From: Nocardioides panacis
GTDB lineage: Bacteria; Actinomycetota; Actinomycetes; Propionibacteriales; Nocardioidaceae
Reading direction: 5' to 3'
DNA length: 64,000 bases
Assembly (NCBI RefSeq): GCF_019039255.1
Contig: NZ_CP077062.1
Location: 3,968,001-4,032,000, forward strand
Shown: positions 7,165 to 60,617 of the stretch, in pieces
How positions within the stretch are numbered: the stretch's first letter is position 1
How the letters are laid out: each line of letters begins with the position of its first letter
The notes under the pieces: model-generated
Seen by the model: only the letters and a program-made list of their open reading frames with translations
What the model was told of the DNA's origin: nothing
The model's database searches: none
Program-made: the position numbers and the translations under genes

Positions 7165-7220
7165 ACCGGGTCGTCCGGTTGCGGGGGCGCTCGAGCGCGC
7201 GCTCGACCGGACGACCCGGT
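7165..7220. repeat. Palindromic repeat HP3, copy 1
   Basis: Inverted repeat with 17-bp arms (ACCGGGTCGTCCGGTTG at 7165-7181; complement at 7204-7220, one mismatch). The centre contains the palindrome GCGCTCGAGCGC. It lies between two HAD genes on the minus strand and directly abuts the stop codon of the downstream-coded HAD-SnoaL gene at 7221. A second copy with the same arms is at 59320-59381. Confidence 0.85.
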
Positions 7221-38932: not shown

Positions 38933-39200
38933 GGGTGTGGTCCTTCCGGCTGGGAGCGGTAGCGGTCCCTCTCAGGATTGGTTCCGACCGGAACGAGGTC
39001 CATAGCCGTCCGGCACCACCCTGCGGGTCGCCGGGGCCAAGGCCCAATGCCTCAACGGGGTCCGGCCCTCGCGCCAGTCAATGACCCCGACGGCCCCCAC
39101 CCCCGCACACCCGTCATCCGCCCCATCTCCCCCGCCCGTCCAAGAAGCCCACCCGTCCCACGGATCGGCGTTTGTGCCGACATCGAGCCCGGGCTCCCCC
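38933..39200. other. Intergenic gap, no gene found
   Basis: About 270 bases upstream of the secreted-protein gene, ending at HP1 copy C. GC-rich with several C-runs. A GGAAGGACCAC site just before the ATG is the probable ribosome binding site. No convincing small gene or RNA was seen. Confidence 0.6.
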
Positions 39201-39265
39201 CGATAGTCCGTGACGTTCTTGCTGCCCCAGGACCCCCGGGACGACAAGTTCGTCACGGACTATCG
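39201..39265. repeat. Palindromic repeat HP1, copy C
   Basis: Perfect 15-bp arms CGATAGTCCGTGACG (39201-39215) and complement (39251-39265), extended outward by CCCC/GGGG. The right arm contains the stop codon and last codons (PDSP) of the methyltransferase gene. The loop region shares GTTCTTGCTG with copy A. Confidence 0.9.
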
Positions 39266-40344
39266 GGGAGGGTGAGGCGGTAGAAGCGGAACATGTCGTG
39301 CTCGACGGGCAGCACCTGTACGTCGACGAAGCCGGCCTCCCTCGCGTAGCCGCGCAGCGTGTCCGGCCGCATCACCGTGCCGGTGCCCACCGACCCCGGG
39401 TGGGAGAGCCCGTCCGGGAGGCACACCAGCAGCGAGATGCCGTACATCAGCTGCTCCACCGGGTCCCCGGGACCGGTGAACGTCTCGGGCACCTTCTCGT
39501 CCATCACCAGCACCGTGCCGCCGGGCCGCACCAGCGCCCGCGCCCGGCCCAGCACGGACACCGGGTCGGGCAGGTCGTGGACGCACTCGAAGGCGGTGAC
39601 CAGGTCGTAGCCGCCGACCTCGCTCGCGGGTCCGGTGCTCGCCGCCGCGGCGTCGACCAGGTGGAAGGTGACCCGCTCCCCCACGCCGTACGACGCGGCG
39701 TGCCGGCGCGCCGCGTCCACGCTCGCCGGGTCCACGTCGAAGCCGTCGACCCGTGCCGCCGGGTAGCCCAGCGCGATCCCGATCGAGGACCAGCCCTCGC
39801 CGCAGCCGATGTCGGCGACCCGCCCGCCGGCGGTGAGGTCGCGGTGCACCTCCGGCAGCACCGGCAGCCAGTCGTGGGCGAGCGGGCCGAGGAACAGCGG
39901 CCGGTTCGCGTCGGCCTGCGCGGTGCGCATCAGCGGCCCGAAGGCTTCCCAGCCGACGCCCCCGCCGGTGCGGTAGGCGTCCTGGAGCGCGGGGAGCTGG
40001 GCCGCCGCCGCGGCGACCATCCGGGCGAACGGCGTGAAGAACGACGGGCTGTCGCGGTCGGCGAGCACGGCCGCGTGCTCCTCGGGGAGCGAGTAGCGGC
40101 GCTCCTGCGCCGGCCGGACGGGGTCGTCCACGTCGACGAGGCCGGCCACGGTCTGCTGCTCGAGCCACTCGCGGGCGTAGCGGGGGTGCAGGCCGGAGCG
40201 CTCGGCGACCTCCTCGGGGGTCAGCGGGCCGTCGCGGTGCAGCAGGTCGTAGACCCCGAACTGGTCCCCGATGTGCACCGTGAGCACGTCCAGCGCGCCG
40301 AGGACGGAGGCGAAGAGGTGGTCGGCGAGCTCGTCGGTCTGCAT
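39253..40344 (-). CDS. Class I SAM-dependent methyltransferase with winged-helix N-terminus
   Basis: A 363-residue protein. The N-terminal about 90 residues are a winged-helix dimerisation domain (HIGDQFGVYDLLHRDGPLTPEEVAERSGLHPRYAREWL), followed by a Rossmann methyltransferase with motif I VADIGCGEGWSSIG and later GYDLVTAFECVHDLPDPVSVL and GGTVLVMDEKV. It resembles the Rv2258c-type actinobacterial enzymes; substrate unknown. GGAGG lies 5 bases before the ATG. The C-terminus LTLPDSP is encoded inside an HP1 arm, so the repeat may have replaced the original end. Confidence 0.85.
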   Translation of the reverse strand: MQTDELADHLFASVLGALDVLTVHIGDQFGVYDLLHRDGPLTPEEVAERSGLHPRYAREWLEQQTVAGLVDVDDPVRPAQERRYSLPEEHAAVLADRDSPSFFTPFARMVAAAAAQLPALQDAYRTGGGVGWEAFGPLMRTAQADANRPLFLGPLAHDWLPVLPEVHRDLTAGGRVADIGCGEGWSSIGIALGYPAARVDGFDVDPASVDAARRHAASYGVGERVTFHLVDAAAASTGPASEVGGYDLVTAFECVHDLPDPVSVLGRARALVRPGGTVLVMDEKVPETFTGPGDPVEQLMYGISLLVCLPDGLSHPGSVGTGTVMRPDTLRGYAREAGFVDVQVLPVEHDMFRFYRLTLPDSP

Positions 40345-53151: not shown

Positions 53152-53637
53152 ATGAGCCTCCTGGACATCCCGATCGCCCGCCTCGACGGCACCGACGCCA
53201 CCCTCGGCCAGATCACCGGCGGCGGTCCCGCGCTGCTGGTCAACGTCGCCTCCAAGTGCGGGCTGACCCCGCAGTACACCGCCCTCGAGGAGCTGCAGGC
53301 GCAGTACGCCGGCCGCGGCTTCACCGTCGTCGGCGTGCCGTGCAACCAGTTCGGCGGCCAGGAGCCCGGCAGCGCGGAGGAGATCGCCGACTTCTGCTCC
53401 GCGACCTACGGCGTGACGTTCCCGATGACCGAGAAGGTCGAGGTGAACGGCGCCGGCCGGCACGCGGTGTACGACGAGCTCGTGCAGGTCGCGGACCAGG
53501 CCGGGAAGGCGGGCGACATCGCCTGGAACTTCGAGAAGTTCCTGGTGGACGGCGAAGGCACGGTCGTCGCACGCTTCGCCCCCACCGTCGTACCGGACGA
53601 CCCGCAGGTCACCGGAGCCATCGAGGCCCTCCTCTGA
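53152..53637 (+). CDS. Glutathione peroxidase-family (thioredoxin-dependent) peroxidase
   Basis: A 161-residue GPx-fold protein. The peroxidatic Cys is in VNVASKCGLTPQY, with the catalytic Gln in GVPCNQFGGQEPGS and Trp/Asn in IAWNFEKFLVDG. Cys rather than Sec is used. Actinobacteria usually lack glutathione, so thioredoxin or mycothiol is the probable reductant. It protects against hydrogen or lipid peroxides in the cytosol. TAGGCT lies 7 bases before the ATG. An HP2 palindrome follows the stop by 6 bases. Confidence 0.93.
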   Translation: MSLLDIPIARLDGTDATLGQITGGGPALLVNVASKCGLTPQYTALEELQAQYAGRGFTVVGVPCNQFGGQEPGSAEEIADFCSATYGVTFPMTEKVEVNGAGRHAVYDELVQVADQAGKAGDIAWNFEKFLVDGEGTVVARFAPTVVPDDPQVTGAIEALL

Positions 53638-53643
53638 TCGCCG

Positions 53644-53696
53644 ACCCGTCACTCGTGCAGCAACACACCCGGCGTGTCGCTGCACGAGTGACGGGT
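53644..53696. repeat. Palindromic repeat HP2, copy 1
   Basis: Near-perfect 23-bp arms starting ACCCGTCACTCGTGCAGC (53644-53666, complement at 53674-53696, one mismatch) around a 7-nt loop. It lies between the peroxidase stop and the exporter start. Copy 2 is at 55330-55382, so the exporter gene is bracketed. Confidence 0.9.
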
Positions 53697-53758
53697 GGTG
53701 GGTGGGTTCACACACCATTAATGTGACCCGGGGTTCCGGAAGTCCCTACCCTGGGGCG

Positions 53759-55318
53759 GTGACCACCCAGACCCCACCGCAGCCCACGTCCCTGCCACCC
53801 GGATCGGCGCCCCACGGCAGCGACAAGCTCGACAAGGACGTCCTCCTCGTGGCCGGCGTCGTCGTGCTCGGCGCGATCATGTCGATCCTCGACATCACCG
53901 TCGTCAGCGTCGCCCAGCCCACCTTCCAGCGCGTGTTCGCGGCCTCACCGGCCGCGGTCGCCTGGACGATGACCGGCTATACCCTGGCCCTCGCGTCGGT
54001 GATCCCGCTGACCGGGTGGGCGGCCGACCGGTTCGGCACCAAGCGGCTCTACATGCTCGCGGTCGCCCTGTTCGCCGGCGGCTCGCTGCTGTGCGCGACG
54101 GCCAACAGCGTCGAGATGCTCACCGCGTTCCGGGTGCTCCAGGGCCTCGGCGGCGGCATGCTGATGCCGCTGGGCATGACGATCATGACCCGCGCCGCGG
54201 GCCCGGACCGGATCGGCCGGGTGATGGCCGTCCTCGGGGTGCCGATGCTGCTCGGCCCGATCTTCGGCCCGATCCTCGGCGGCTGGCTGATCGACATCGC
54301 CTCATGGCACTGGATCTTCCTGATCAACCTGCCGATCGGCGCGGTCGCGCTGGCCTACGCCGCGCTGGTGCTGCCGGCGGACAACCCGACGCCCTCGGAG
54401 AGCTTCGACTTCGTCGGCATGCTGCTGCTCTCCCCCGGCCTGGCGCTGTTCCTGTTCGGGGTCTCCTCGATCCCCGAGGCCCGCACCGTCTGGTCGGCCC
54501 GGGTCCTGGTGACCGCGGCGATCGGCCTGGTGCTGGTCGCGGCGTTCGTGCTCCGCTCGCTGTTCCGCTCCCCGGAGCACCCGCTGATGGACCTGCAGCT
54601 GTTCCGCAACCGCGCGCTGAGCGTCTCGGTGATCGCGATGTCGCTGTTCGCGATGGCGTTCTTCGGCGCCAGCCTGCTGTTCCCGTCCTACTTCCTCCAG
54701 GTGCGCGGCGAGAGCACCCTGCAGGCCGGGCTGCTGCTCGCCCCGCAGGGCATCGGCGCGATGCTCACCATGCCGGTCGCCGGCATCCTCACCGACCGGA
54801 TCGGCCCCGGCAAGATCGTGATCACCGGGATCACCGTGATCGTGGTCGGGATGGCGATGTTCACCCAGGTCGGCGTGGACACCTCCTACACCTACCTGCT
54901 CAGCGCGCTGTTCGTGATGGGCCTGGGCATGGGCGGCACGATGATGCCGATCATGACCTCGGCGCTGCAGACGCTGCGCGACCACGAGATCGCCCGCGGC
55001 TCGACGCTGATGAACATCACCCAGCAGATCGCCGCGTCGATCGGCACCGCGCTGTTCTCGGTGCTGCTCACCAACGGCTTCAACTCCAGCGCCGCGGTCG
55101 GCCAGCTCCGGTCCGCGCTCGAGTCGCCCGAGGGTCTGCGCGCGCTGCCGGATCCGTCCGTGCTGCCGAAGGCGCTCGCCGACATGGCCGACGCGTTCGG
55201 CAACGTGTTCGTGGTGGCGACGGTGCTGGTCGCGCTCTGCCTCGTCCCGGCGGTGATGCTGCCGCGGACCAAGCCGAAGGCGCCCGCGGACGACGCCGCC
55301 CCGGTGCTCCTGCATTGA
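53759..55318 (+). CDS. DHA2-family MFS drug exporter
   Basis: About 519 residues with 14 hydrophobic segments, the DHA2 (drug:H+ antiporter-2) pattern. Motifs include ILDITVVSVAQPTFQRVF near helix 1, GWAADRFGTKRLYML (motif A) and a second-half FLQVRGESTLQAGLLLAPQGIGA. Such proteins export drugs or dyes. The GTG at 53759 has TACCCT 6 bases before it; a longer frame to 53702 crosses an operator-like CACACCATTAATGTG repeat. The gene is bracketed by two HP2 palindromes. Confidence 0.9.
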   Translation: MTTQTPPQPTSLPPGSAPHGSDKLDKDVLLVAGVVVLGAIMSILDITVVSVAQPTFQRVFAASPAAVAWTMTGYTLALASVIPLTGWAADRFGTKRLYMLAVALFAGGSLLCATANSVEMLTAFRVLQGLGGGMLMPLGMTIMTRAAGPDRIGRVMAVLGVPMLLGPIFGPILGGWLIDIASWHWIFLINLPIGAVALAYAALVLPADNPTPSESFDFVGMLLLSPGLALFLFGVSSIPEARTVWSARVLVTAAIGLVLVAAFVLRSLFRSPEHPLMDLQLFRNRALSVSVIAMSLFAMAFFGASLLFPSYFLQVRGESTLQAGLLLAPQGIGAMLTMPVAGILTDRIGPGKIVITGITVIVVGMAMFTQVGVDTSYTYLLSALFVMGLGMGGTMMPIMTSALQTLRDHEIARGSTLMNITQQIAASIGTALFSVLLTNGFNSSAAVGQLRSALESPEGLRALPDPSVLPKALADMADAFGNVFVVATVLVALCLVPAVMLPRTKPKAPADDAAPVLLH

Positions 55319-55329
55319 CCGGCCCGCTG

Positions 55330-55382
55330 ACCCGTCACTCATGCAGCGAAACACCGGGAGTGTTGCTGCACGAGTGACGGGT
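55330..55382. repeat. Palindromic repeat HP2, copy 2
   Basis: Arms ACCCGTCACTCATGCAGC... (55330-55354) and GTTGCTGCACGAGTGACGGG region (55360-55382), with one mismatch and a 2-nt bulge relative to copy 1. It lies between the convergent ends of the MFS and M13 genes. Confidence 0.88.
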
Positions 55383-55387
55383 GGGCG

Positions 55388-57343
55388 CTACCAGATGCGG
55401 ACGCGGTCCGCGGGGTCGAGCCACAGGCCGTCGCCGGGGCGTACGTCGAACGCCTCGACGAACTCGTCGAGGTTGCGCACGATGTTCGCGCGGAACTCGG
55501 CCGGGCTGTGCGGGTCGACCGTGAGCAGCTGGAGCAGCTGCTCCTTGCGGCGCTTGGAGCGCCACACGTTCGCGAAGCTGAGGAACACCCGCTGCGCGCC
55601 GGTCCAGCCGCCGACCTCGGGGGCCGGCTCGTCGCCGAGGCTGATCAGGTAGGCCTTGAGCGCGATGGTGATGCCGCCCAGGTCGCCGATGTTCTCCCCG
55701 ACCGTCAGCGAGCCGTTGACGTGCTCGCCGGGCAGCTCGGCCGGCTCGAAGCCGTCGTACTGCTTCACCAGCTTGTCGGCCCGGCCCTGGAACGCCTCCC
55801 GGTCGGCGGCGGTCCACCAGTCCGCCATGTTGCCGAGCTCGTCGTACTGCGAGCCCTGGTCGTCGAAGCCGTGGCCGACCTCGTGGCCGATCACCGCGCC
55901 GATGCCGCCGTAGTTCTCGGCCGGCTCGGCGTCGGCGTCGAAGAACGGCGCCTGCAGGATGCCGGCCGGGAAGCAGATCTCGTTCATGCCCGGGTTGTAG
56001 TAGGCGTTCACGTGCTGCGGCAGCATGAACCACTCGTCGCGGTCGACCGGGGAGCCGATCTTGCGCAGCTCGCGGTCGGTCTCGAACGCGGAGACCGCGC
56101 GGACGTTGCCGAGCAGGTCGTCGGCGCCGACCTCGAGCGCGGAGTAGTCGCGGAACGTGTCGGGGTAGCCGATCTTGGGGCGGAACGTCTCGATCTTGCG
56201 GTAGGCGCGCTGCTTGGTCTCCTCGGTCATCCAGTCCAGGGAGGCGATGCTGCGCCGGTAGGCCTCGAGCAGGTTGGCGACCAGGCCCTCCATGATCTGC
56301 TTGGACTCCGGCGGGAAGTGCCGGGCGACGTACTCCTCGCCGACGGCCTCGCCGATCGCGCTCTCCACGAAGCCGACACCGCGCTTCCAGCGGACCCGCA
56401 GCTCGGGGGTGCCGTTCAGCGTGCGGCCGTAGAACTCGAAGTTCTCCTCCACGAACGCGGTCGAGAGGTACGGCGACGCCGCCCGCAGCACGCGCGCCGC
56501 GACCCACGCCTTCCAGTCGGCCAAGGGCACCTCCTCGAGCGCCACGGACAGGTGCTCGAGGTAGGACGGCTGCCGGACGATCGTCTCGGCCAGCGTCGAC
56601 TCGTCGGCGCCGAGCGCGCGCGCCCAGGTGTCCAGCGGCAGCGCCGGCACCAGCGCACGCAGGTCGGCGAGCGGGGTCAGGTTGTAGGCCTTGAGGACGT
56701 CCCGGGTCTCGGCCCGCTCCCAGTGGCCCTGGGCAAGCCGGGTCTCGACGTCCATCACCTGCTGCGCGGCGCCGGCCGGGTCGGCCCAGCCGCCGAGCGC
56801 GAAGATCTTCTCCACGTGCGCGACGTAGGCCGCGCGGATGTCGGCGAACTTGTCCTCGCGGTAGTAGGACTCGTCGGGCAGGCCGGTGCCGCTCTGCACG
56901 ATGTTGAGCAGGTAGCGGGTGGCGTCCCGGTCGTCGGTGTTGACGTAGGCGCCGAAGAAGCCGCTGCCGCCGCGGCGCTCGAGGCCGCCGACGAACTCGA
57001 CGAGGGCGGCCAGGTCGGGCAGCGCCGCGACCCGCTCCAGGTCGGCGCGGACCGGCTCGGCCCCGAGCGCCTCGATCCGCTCCTCGTCCATGAAGCTGGT
57101 GAACAGGTCACCGATCTTCTGGGCGTTCGAGCCGTGCTCGTGCTCGCCCTCGGCCAGCTGCTCGATGATCGCCTTGACCCGGTCCTCGGACTGCTCGGCG
57201 AGCACCGCGAAGGCACCCCAGGCGGAGCGGTCGGAGGGGATCTCGGTGGTCTCGAGCCAACGGCCGTTGACGTGCCGGAAGAGGTCGTCCTGGGGACGGG
57301 TGTCGGGGTCCATGCCCGCGCGGGCGTCATCGAGAATCGTCAC
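55388..57343 (-). CDS. M13 family zinc metallopeptidase (neprilysin-like)
   Basis: A 651-residue M13 peptidase. The zinc site is VIGHEVGHGFDD (HExxH) with the second motif GENIGDLGG (ExxxD) about 60 residues later, and the characteristic NAYYNPGMNEICFPAGIL, then the C-terminal NPAEFRANIVRNLDEF-type end with VDPHSPAEFRANI. No signal or membrane anchor is visible, unlike mammalian neprilysin; actinobacterial members such as Zmp1 are soluble or leaderless-secreted. TAGCCT lies 7 bases before the GTG start. HP2 copy 2 follows its stop. Confidence 0.93.
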   Translation of the reverse strand: MTILDDARAGMDPDTRPQDDLFRHVNGRWLETTEIPSDRSAWGAFAVLAEQSEDRVKAIIEQLAEGEHEHGSNAQKIGDLFTSFMDEERIEALGAEPVRADLERVAALPDLAALVEFVGGLERRGGSGFFGAYVNTDDRDATRYLLNIVQSGTGLPDESYYREDKFADIRAAYVAHVEKIFALGGWADPAGAAQQVMDVETRLAQGHWERAETRDVLKAYNLTPLADLRALVPALPLDTWARALGADESTLAETIVRQPSYLEHLSVALEEVPLADWKAWVAARVLRAASPYLSTAFVEENFEFYGRTLNGTPELRVRWKRGVGFVESAIGEAVGEEYVARHFPPESKQIMEGLVANLLEAYRRSIASLDWMTEETKQRAYRKIETFRPKIGYPDTFRDYSALEVGADDLLGNVRAVSAFETDRELRKIGSPVDRDEWFMLPQHVNAYYNPGMNEICFPAGILQAPFFDADAEPAENYGGIGAVIGHEVGHGFDDQGSQYDELGNMADWWTAADREAFQGRADKLVKQYDGFEPAELPGEHVNGSLTVGENIGDLGGITIALKAYLISLGDEPAPEVGGWTGAQRVFLSFANVWRSKRRKEQLLQLLTVDPHSPAEFRANIVRNLDEFVEAFDVRPGDGLWLDPADRVRIW

Positions 57344-59309: not shown

Positions 59310-59319
59310 CCCGCCTCCC

Positions 59320-59381
59320 CGCGCCGGGTCGTCCGGTTGCGGGTGCGGCCAGGCGCACGCTCAACCGGACGACCCGGCGCG
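59320..59381. repeat. Palindromic repeat HP3, copy 2
   Basis: Perfect 20-bp arms CGCGCCGGGTCGTCCGGTTG (59320-59339) and complement (59362-59381), 22-nt centre. Lies between convergent GAF-ANTAR and M15 peptidase genes; the right arm codes for the last residues (AGSSG) and part of the stop of the M15 gene. Same family as 7165-7220. Confidence 0.92.
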
Positions 59382-60617
59382 GACGACCTGGGACATCTCG
59401 AAGTGCATCGGGTCGGTGTAGGACCAGTCGCCGCCCCAGGCGAAGCCCCACTTCTTGAAGATCGCGACGACCTGCCGGTCCATCTCCCCGACGGTCCCGC
59501 GCTGGTTGCCGGGCACGTTCAGGTCGACGGCGATGCCCCAGGAGTGCAGCGACAGCCCCTTGCCGGGGTCGTTGGCGATGAACCGCGGGTAGTAGCAGCC
59601 GGCGTACTCCCCGGGGTGCACCCGGTCGGCGAGCCCGTCGGCGACCACCTCGGTCAGCGCGGCCCGCAGCTGCGGCAGCATCCCCTTGTTGCAGGTGACG
59701 CTGCCCAGGATCGGGACCTGCTCGGTGCGGATGAACGAGCGCACCCAGGCCTGGTCGGGGGTCACCGTCCCGTCGGCGTGCGGGGTGTAGGTGAAGGTGC
59801 CCACCGCGTCGCTGACCGAGCTGCCCGAGAGCACGGCGGTCTGCCGGACGTCCACGTTGAACTCCAGGGCCAGCGTCTGCATGGTGATCCCGGGGCCGAC
59901 CGCCTTCTCGAGCCGGTCCATCACCGCGGACGGGGTCAGCTTCCCCGTGGACACGAGGAGCGCGTTGTCGCGGGGCAGGCCGAGCTGCTCGCCGCGCTTG
60001 TAGTTCACGACCGCGGAGATCTGCTTGACCAGCGGGGCGTAGGCGCCGATGTGCACCTCCGGTGAGTCGGCCGCCGTGCCGAGGTGGAGGTAGCCCTCGG
60101 GCTGCTCGAGCCGGCGGGGCAGGGCCGGGTCGACCGCGACCTCGCCACCCGCGACCCGGGACCAGACGTCGTCGGCGCTCGCGGACTGCAGCGTGGTGAA
60201 GCGCCGGAACGCGCCGGGGTCCACGGCGGCGACCGAGAGCGTGCGGCCGTTGAGCGACAGGGACGCCAGGGACAGCGGCATCGCGGCCTCGACGCCGCGG
60301 ACGCGGCGGACGGCCGCGCGCACCGAGGCGGGGATCGTGCGGCTGCTGGTGACCAGCACGTCGGCGGGCAGCAGCGGCGGGCGCAGCTTGCCGGGGTCCG
60401 CCACGGCGTAGGCGTCCGAGCCCGCGCCGCCGGCGCCACCGGTCGCGCTGCCGTCGGCCGGGTCGCTCGCCTCGGAGGCTCCGCCGCTCGGGCCGGAACC
60501 GGTGGCGCTCGCCCCCGTGCGACGGATCGTGTCGGTGCCGCCGCAGGCGCCCAGCACCAGCACCAGGACGGCGCACAGCACCGCCCCCGCACACCTCCGC
60601 ACGCGCTCGTGCCGCAT
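59361..60617 (-). CDS. M15-family (VanY-like) peptidase lipoprotein
   Basis: A 418-residue exported lipoprotein. Signal: basic MRHERVRR, hydrophobic run and lipobox LGAC (Cys near residue 25), then a Ser/Gly-rich linker. The C-terminal domain carries SLHSWGIAVDLNVPGN and YTDPMHFEMSQV, the zinc-binding H-x6-D and late His of M15 D-Ala-D-Ala carboxypeptidases. A role in peptidoglycan trimming is likely, but the long middle region (VADPGKLRPPLLPADVLVTS..., residues about 70-290) is unrecognised. GGGAGGGGAGCG precedes the ATG at 60615-60617. The end of the gene lies in HP3 copy 2. Confidence 0.85.
   Translation of the reverse strand: MRHERVRRCAGAVLCAVLVLVLGACGGTDTIRRTGASATGSGPSGGASEASDPADGSATGGAGGAGSDAYAVADPGKLRPPLLPADVLVTSSRTIPASVRAAVRRVRGVEAAMPLSLASLSLNGRTLSVAAVDPGAFRRFTTLQSASADDVWSRVAGGEVAVDPALPRRLEQPEGYLHLGTAADSPEVHIGAYAPLVKQISAVVNYKRGEQLGLPRDNALLVSTGKLTPSAVMDRLEKAVGPGITMQTLALEFNVDVRQTAVLSGSSVSDAVGTFTYTPHADGTVTPDQAWVRSFIRTEQVPILGSVTCNKGMLPQLRAALTEVVADGLADRVHPGEYAGCYYPRFIANDPGKGLSLHSWGIAVDLNVPGNQRGTVGEMDRQVVAIFKKWGFAWGGDWSYTDPMHFEMSQVVRAGSSG

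Follow-up and report, generated by a model that had tools for sequence, protein, structure and literature searches.

Dispersed gene-end hairpins like those of Nocardioides panacis flank an AbiEi-Vsr nuclease gene in related species, suggesting a self-spreading element of a new sort

Two palindromes at gene ends

The window that we analyzed is a stretch of 64,000 nucleotides (3968001-4032000 of one 4.90-Mb contig) from the genome of Nocardioides panacis. It contains two near-perfect palindromes of 53 bp each, at 53644-53696 (copy 1) and 55330-55382 (copy 2), which we call HP2. The arms of copy 1 (53644..53666 and 53674..53696, on the + strand) are 23 nt long, with 1 mismatch and a loop of 7 nt, and copy 2 lies inside an inverted pair of 31 nt (81%). 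Copy 1 and copy 2 share 88% identity over 60 nt, and over 58 nt they are 91% complementary to each other. This agrees with an earlier note on the window, which had described two HP2 sites with arms of about 23 bp.

Copy 1 follows a glutathione peroxidase gene (53152..53637, + strand; GSHPx, E = 3.5e-34) whose stop codon ends 6 bp before the palindrome. The stop codon of an MFS exporter gene (53759..55318, + strand; MFS_1, E = 7.9e-60) ends 11 bp before copy 2; the start codon of this gene is uncertain, and its frame is open from 53702. Convergent with the exporter, an M13 peptidase gene (55388..57325, - strand, upper end approximate; Peptidase_M13, E = 2.5e-68) has its stop codon 5 bp past copy 2. 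The exporter gene lies between two copies because two neighboring gene ends each carry one. The earlier note had tied the pair to the exporter, but each copy adjoins a stop codon of its own, and the genes within close pairs of HP2 differ.

Both palindromes stand out from dinucleotide shuffles when folded (z of -6.9 and -5.8 on the + strand and of -7.4 and -7.5 on the - strand for the two copies; 0/200 shuffles each). With up to 2 mismatches allowed, the 12-mer CACTCGTGCAGC by itself shows no enrichment across the window (16 vs. 14.0 expected); it is the paired arrangement that exceeds chance. By eye, there is no T-run directly 3' of the hairpin at either copy on either strand. Rfam gave no match at the gathering score in the window, and at 11 other loci it gave microRNA models only, all under the gathering score.

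A family of hairpins in N. panacis

A genome-wide search with both arms and one base left free found 5 sites, and the pattern CCCGTCA...TGACGGG at the spacing of HP2 found 22; the reversed control gave 0 in either case. (Labels such as G149 and L081 are our names for genomes and loci.) A relaxed search raised this to at least 31 copies that share one geometry. Besides the two window copies, these comprise 29 that we read after excluding three spurious matches in L081 and L101. The earlier note had proposed a repeat family while allowing that only the two window copies might exist; with at least 31 copies in the genome, the family is real.

The element is 63 bp long. Its outer ends, CGCCGACCCGTCA and TGACGGGTCGGCG, pair with each other, and at its apex is an asymmetric box, GGCGTGTC. 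The span from ACCCGTCA to TGACGGGT is 53 nt in 30 copies and 54 nt in one, and outside it the sequence mostly continues as CGC[CT]GA and TCGGCG (30 of the 31 copies listed). Most copies are imperfect palindromes: the left half is a constant arm, CACCCGTGCAGC or close to it, and in the right half the box CGGCGTGTCG precedes a stretch that varies. Perfect palindromes such as the two window copies, with both arms alike, are thus a minority form of a family that is mostly asymmetric, with a conserved loop box and a fixed length. As a full 63-nt element (53639..53701, + strand), copy 1 runs from CGCCGACCCGTCA to TGACGGGTGGTGG and is palindromized but retains the GGCGTGTC box; copy 2 (55325..55387, + strand) is also palindromized, and its box is degenerate (GGGAGTGTT). 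The copies cluster, with 6 pairs less than 2 kb apart in the genome vs. 0.37 expected (0/20,000 simulations). At one locus (L084 1494-1573), the element lies within the 3' end of a frame that by eye is scpA-like, and it apparently encodes the last residues.

The same loop on different stems in related genomes

A search with the perfect arms had no match in a collection of 84,980 species (which may leave out the window's own genome), and this gave the first impression of a family confined to one genome. That impression was wrong: the ends plus the box at fixed spacing matched 54 stretches in four named species of the collection, namely Nocardioides sp. ND4_Bin_5, Nocardioides lianchengensis, Nocardioides ferulae, and Microlunatus speluncae. 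M. speluncae belongs to another bacterial family than the Nocardioides carriers. Among viral contigs, the exact ends-plus-box pattern had 0 matches. The first of these species corresponds to G269, a draft of 84% completeness with 19 exact copies. The family is also present in G273, G149, G488, G501, and G559. Altogether, we found the 63-nt hairpin, with the same loop and genome-specific stems, in 12 related genomes, N. panacis included. Copy numbers from the covariance-model searches are lower bounds, as these scored 150 of 3518 candidates or 13 candidates per genome. A scan with a 15-mer around the box found 0 sites in N. panacis, where other letters precede the box, and single background-like matches in many other genomes.

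The copies that we collected with the box scan number 109 and include 25 of the 31 from N. panacis, as six with a deviating box were missed by the scan. We aligned 99 of the 109, omitting six palindromized copies from N. panacis, three whose core is not 51 nt, and one without a full flank. These 99 copies, from 6 genomes, align without gaps over 63 columns. The loop box, about YTTTYNGCGGCGTGTCG, is nearly invariant, while the left arm or arms are particular to each genome. For instance, G001, which is of the same genus as N. panacis, has a different stem (GAGAGGCCACTTCCC in 3 of 5 copies) but the same length and, in 4 of 5, the exact box, and G073 has a stem of CGCCGAGACGGC or close to it at 6 of 6 box sites. 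G559 and G501 have compensated changes in the outer stem (CCGGTCA/TGACCGG and CGCGTCA/TGACGCG). The same loop and length with other stems are thus found in G001, G559, G501, G488, and G073. Because stems are exchanged across genomes while length and box stay the same, the constants of the family are its length, its loop box, and its hairpin form; the sequence of the stem is not constant.

Pairing itself is supported by covariation. Across the 99 copies, 190 pair cells have changed on both sides vs. 104.9 in shuffles (0/500), and at most 82 if the partner is slid. Within genomes, partner-specific pairing was significant in M. speluncae only; in the other five genomes, shuffling the partners made no difference, which implies that those genomes do not strictly maintain the inner stem. 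RNAalifold proposed an alternative pairing of the same alignment, without double changes, and the pairing on which we rely is that of the outer stem, which covaries. We also asked whether flanking DNA is the source of the variable 9 nt on the right side. Their best match within 120 bp on either side was 6.80, and swapping segments within genomes gave 6.69 (sd 0.06); the difference is too small to build on, and we set this idea aside.

Some matches do not belong to the family or look different from it. We rejected five genomes (G148, G142, G150, G241, and G295) as carriers because their weak model matches are other gene-end palindromes, with ends of the GACCCGTC type and no box. Gene-end palindromes of other lengths, with ends of this type and without the box, occur in other genomes of the family (L203-L215). 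Separately, box matches at L244 and L245 (G063), L247 (G072), L248 (G067), and L251 (G336) resemble hairpins by eye and have wholly different stems; the frame that was scored at these loci is off by about a base, and pairing is poor in that frame.

Position and orientation relative to genes

As the earlier note had described for the window, members of the family mostly sit at the 3' ends of genes. We looked for stop codons at -6 to 40 bp from 102 asymmetric copies: 41 have one on the left-arm side alone, 12 on the right side alone, 7 on both sides, and 42 on neither. The bias of the left arm towards the stop codon has p = 8e-5 if the copies are treated as independent. The distance from the stop codon to the 51-nt core peaks at 0 (11 cases) and at 6 (10 cases), and most other distances are 5-15 bp. 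At a distance of 0 on the left side, the A of the stop codon is the base that precedes CCCGTCA (as in CGCTGA); at a distance of 6, the stop codon comes immediately before CGCCGA. Neighboring elements less than 2 kb apart are convergent in 21 of 24 cases. At 56 asymmetric copies, both neighboring genes are no more than 150 bp away; these genes are convergent at 21, tandem at 29, and divergent at 6. In the tandem contexts, 19 elements have the same sense as the genes and 10 the opposite (10 vs. 9 without N. panacis). Gene positions in these counts are from our own finder, which uses the GC content of third codon positions (GC3), and not from annotation.

The spacer between infB and rbfA (L081 1495-1590; L127-L132) has the element in N. 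panacis and other palindromic sequences in six congeners. Two of these (G003 and G006) share CCAGGGGATGCAGGA...TCCTGCATCCCCTGG. At one genome per species, the spacers of the congeners do not align. Replacement of one element by another and a constant need for a terminator fit this pattern alike.

A nuclease gene between inverted copies

When we compared the genes beside the element across species, one stood out, with element-bracketed homologs in N. panacis, N. ferulae, and N. lianchengensis. Apart from this locus, the homologous neighbors were scattered pairs only, at E = 1e-15. In N. panacis, the gene (C1:3842190-3843176, outside the window) has hairpins on both sides, with a flavin reductase gene upstream and, by eye, a CoA-transferase-like gene downstream. 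It encodes an AbiEi_4 domain followed by a C-terminal restriction endonuclease domain (MTES_1575 / DUF559). In Pfam, AbiEi_4 is above the cut-off (29.9 vs. 25), as is DUF559, and MTES_1575 is slightly below; the AbiEi match from PADLOC has E = 4.5e-16. Others have classed MTES_1575 as a Vsr-type restriction endonuclease domain (PMC3710099).

We modeled the protein with AlphaFold2 (pLDDT 88.9, pTM 0.85). Over its C-terminal 110 residues, the model resembles the catalytic domain of I-Bth0305I (Z = 13.3; 96 residues at 2.2 A) and Vsr (Z = 10.9; 100 residues at 2.2 A), and residues 23-215 match AbiEi (6y8q; Z = 8.1, rmsd 8.6 over 179; Foldseek E = 3e-5). In an alignment of 23 homologs, E223, E266, H273, and D282 are invariant and D255 is nearly so. 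Because these probable catalytic residues are kept, the nuclease is likely to be active.

A box hairpin adjoins the best homolog of the nuclease in 10 of 11 element-bearing genomes tested, where homologs were ranked with the N. panacis protein as the query. Eight of the ten are from the scan for the box (on one or both sides), G073 is from a flank alignment, and G501 is from a model match. Flank alignments place box hairpins on both sides in G149, G273, G488, G001, and G073. In G149, scoring of 13 candidates yielded three strong copies, of which two bracket the nuclease gene. In G501, the one box hairpin found is 131 bp downstream of the homolog, and in G559 the top homolog has a box hairpin on one side. 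The eleventh genome is the draft G269 (84% complete), with no box beside its best homolog. The scan also fired beside two homologs that we left unlabeled in the tree described below (G003a and G273b).

Inverted similarity between the two flanks (score of at least 40) was found for 23 of 33 family genes and for 1 of 180 other genes at the loci examined, with the 180 controls not matched for isolation. The 33 are the family genes called by our finder with 250 bp on both sides; homologs outside this count include G001a, G488a, and G073a. The 10 genes without an inverted bracket include distant homologs, G006a, and the top homolog of G559, as well as G000b in this count, which has the bracket if its start is set otherwise. 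In a separate comparison of flanks, 24 of 30 loci were above the 95th percentile of comparisons between genomes, a null that includes related repeats. The single bracketed control gene (L169 814-1611, from M. speluncae) is short-chain dehydrogenase-like by eye and lies between two 60-nt palindromes of another family (ACCCCGACTTGTCAGAACTAGGGG).

The type of box also clusters on the tree of the nuclease. On a tree of 44 homologs, the box labels require 3 changes vs. 9.1 when shuffled (0/500). Ten labels were set by hand (the eight from the scan, G073a, and G501), and 9 of 53 rows were dropped (seven second copies of loci already included and two over-long frames). The box rows form a grade and not one clade. 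Searches for the nuclease with tblastn matched 18 plasmid records, all below 60% identity, and 1 phage record at 31%.

Other repeats often bracket the paralogs

Paralogs of the nuclease, in the same genomes and in others, are often bracketed by other repeats. Many of these are arrays of 22-32-bp units that start with CGCCGA, or near it, at the outer side. N. panacis has three homologs with three different bracketing repeats: besides the gene between HP2 copies, two more AbiEi-Vsr genes (L275 and L286; C1 near 3308005 and 4713545) lie among arrays of CGCCGACCCGGCGCGTCTGGCGG and GCCGACCCGGGTCCGGTG. In the congener G002, the unit that brackets a nuclease gene (CGCCGAGTCGGCGCATCTGCAG) has 154 copies at up to 3 mismatches (reversed control 1); there are 2 in N. 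panacis and 0 in G200. We read 14 clusters of this unit, two of which overlap. Every cluster is an array built as (+)n, (-)n, or (+)n(-)m, and in 12 of the 14 a stop codon lies no more than 45 bp from an outer edge. Among the loci examined from M. speluncae, the one homolog that we met (L170) is bracketed by a different repeat. In G220, a distant homolog lies between two palindromes of 57-60 nt, CACGTGCACCCG...CGGGTGCACGTG, perhaps another family of brackets (L274).

Comparison with known repeats and enzymes

The layout recalls REP elements and REPINs with their RAYT enzymes. HP2 is also a short palindrome, in at least 31 copies, found between genes at gene ends; it also forms convergent or inverted doublets (21 of 24 neighbors within 2 kb); its sequence is specific to the genome; repeats lie beside a single-copy gene for the cognate enzyme; and there are several pairs of enzyme and repeat per genome. 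Pseudomonas fluorescens SBW25 has three such pairs (PMC3116915). In contrast to REPs, HP2 has no unpaired GTAG or CGTC foot: its CGTC is at columns 9-12 and is paired in 98, 98, 96, and 98 of 98 distinct copies. Also, the unit is 63 nt with a conserved apical loop, and the enzyme combines AbiEi with a Vsr-fold nuclease. We rejected a RAYT (Y1) enzyme as the partner of HP2 because PF01797 was found in 0 of 13 genomes, five of them rich in the element, while the same search was positive in 5 of 14 control genomes. With no Y1 enzyme and no unpaired tag, HP2 does not belong to the REPIN/RAYT family despite having the same layout.

The REPs tagged with CGTC (Di Nocera 2013) are described as palindromic, mostly downstream of genes, dimer-forming, and without a dedicated transposase (PMC3733652). 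HP2 shares the first three of these properties and has CGTC in its end, but their stems are 8-9 bp with CGTC unpaired at one end, whereas in HP2 it is within the stem and paired.

Among enzymes, the closest fold to the nuclease domain is the Vsr-like, EDxHD homing endonuclease I-Bth0305I (Z = 13.3). Intron-borne genes encode homing enzymes such as this one, whereas the gene described here is bracketed by dispersed repeats. The N-terminal winged helix and middle part resemble AbiEi of the AbiE type IV toxin-antitoxin system and Rv2827c, and both Pfam and the fold identify the AbiEi domain; here, however, the AbiEi-like part is fused to a nuclease, and the repeats are on both sides of the gene and across the genome. 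Like a Rho-independent terminator, HP2 is a G+C-rich hairpin after a stop codon, but the T-run is absent at both window copies. The repeated terminators of Mycobacterium tuberculosis that were reportedly described with RNIE (TRIT) are another likeness, being repeated actinobacterial hairpins at gene ends; we know of no link between TRIT and a nuclease.

What HP2 might be

The hairpins on the flanks of the nuclease gene in related species suggest a self-spreading element of a new sort: HP2 hairpins resemble the ends of a small autonomous unit, in which a gene for an AbiEi winged helix and a Vsr/EDxHD-fold nuclease lies between inverted copies. The nuclease gene is associated with the hairpins; that the nuclease mobilizes them we infer. 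On balance, we favor the view that HP2 elements are dispersed, directional, REP-like hairpins spread by their cognate AbiEi-Vsr nuclease, perhaps with a side role as terminators. The winged-helix part would recognize the genome's own element, and the nuclease would nick or cut it, perhaps when the hairpin is extruded or is single-stranded during replication or transcription. Repair or rejoining could then put copies at new gene ends. The retention of the same loop on exchangeable stems fits recognition of a folded strand, and genome-specific arms would be consistent with co-evolution between a winged helix and its repeat. Perfect palindromes like those of the window would be copies in which template switching inside the hairpin has probably evened out the imperfect arms. 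Elements in place may also serve to terminate transcription, or insulate it, from either direction.

Alternatively, HP2 might be bidirectional terminators without a U-tract, homogenized within each genome by gene conversion, and the nuclease genes might be isolated units flanked by terminators. Position at gene ends, with distances from the stop codon that peak at 0 and 5-15 bp, would suit terminators, as would the very stable hairpins and the rarity of divergent contexts (6, against 21 convergent and 29 tandem, among 56 asymmetric copies). So would the infB-rbfA spacer, where six congeners have other palindromic sequences (two alike) in place of the element, as though different sequences performed one constant task. 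But terminators would need neither a fixed length of 63 nt nor an apical loop that is nearly invariant across two bacterial families, and a T-run follows neither window copy. Also against terminators, inverted flanks are commoner at family genes (23 of 33) than at other genes (1 of 180), although the controls were unmatched for isolation, and the paralogs' repeats are often tandem arrays instead of hairpins. We consider this explanation unlikely, if the most serious of the alternatives.

A regulatory role for the AbiEi-like protein, with HP2 as its operators, is harder still to credit. The promoters of AbiEi and Rv2827c contain inverted repeats of 23 bp to which these proteins bind, the N-terminal part of the nuclease is AbiEi-like (PADLOC E = 4.5e-16; Z = 8.1 to 6y8q), and PMC7319586 describes AbiEi-type proteins as binding inverted repeats upstream of their own genes. 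Against a regulon, copies lie downstream as well as upstream of the nuclease gene and also follow unrelated genes at their 3' ends, which one would not expect to hold promoters, and the probable catalytic residues are kept in 23 aligned homologs. We give slightly less credence yet to a role in the 3' UTR, in which, for instance, a decay or stabilizing factor would read the conserved loop of the hairpin as RNA. A conserved loop on an exchangeable stem and the orientation towards the upstream stop codon (41 vs. 12) would fit such a role; yet in tandem contexts just 19 elements have the same sense vs. 10 opposite (10 vs. 9 without N. panacis), no Rfam family reached its threshold in the window or at 11 other loci, and palindromized copies persist despite an altered loop.

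Returning to spread by the nuclease, a broader form of this proposal strikes us as evenly poised between right and wrong: AbiEi-Vsr nucleases with their own inverted repeats would be a new class of mobile element that disperses genome-specific hairpins or arrays to gene 3' ends across the carrier group, which we take to be Propionibacteriales. This class would be an independent invention of a REPIN/RAYT-like arrangement with an enzyme of the PD-(D/E)XK type, several pairs of enzyme and repeat per genome, and co-evolution of repeat and enzyme. REP-type repeats are common intergenic elements in bacteria. In a 2013 survey, GTAG is the only REP class tied to an enzyme, and CGTC repeats are seemingly without one (PMC3733652). 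If our proposal is correct, then a second, unrelated enzyme family has the same relation to repeats, and such partnerships arose more than once. It would also offer a function for AbiEi/DUF559-type nucleases that are now annotated as antitoxin-like or unknown, and it would explain the origin of the species-specific gene-end palindromes of GC-rich actinobacteria. We found no description of nuclease-bracketing repeats in the literature searched, a body that excludes most subscription papers and preprints and includes PMC3733652, PMC12306157, PMC3710099, PMC7319586, and PMC3116915.

Other inverted repeats in the window

The window contains a second palindrome family of similar size, HP1 (ACCGGGTCGTCCGGT...), at 7165-7220 and 59319-59382. 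We searched for the core of HP1 at the loci of the three nuclease homologs of N. panacis and found no HP1 palindrome beside them. A further inverted repeat, at 39198-39268, has 24-nt arms (CCCCGATAGTCCGTGACGTTCTTG) and a loop of 23 nt.
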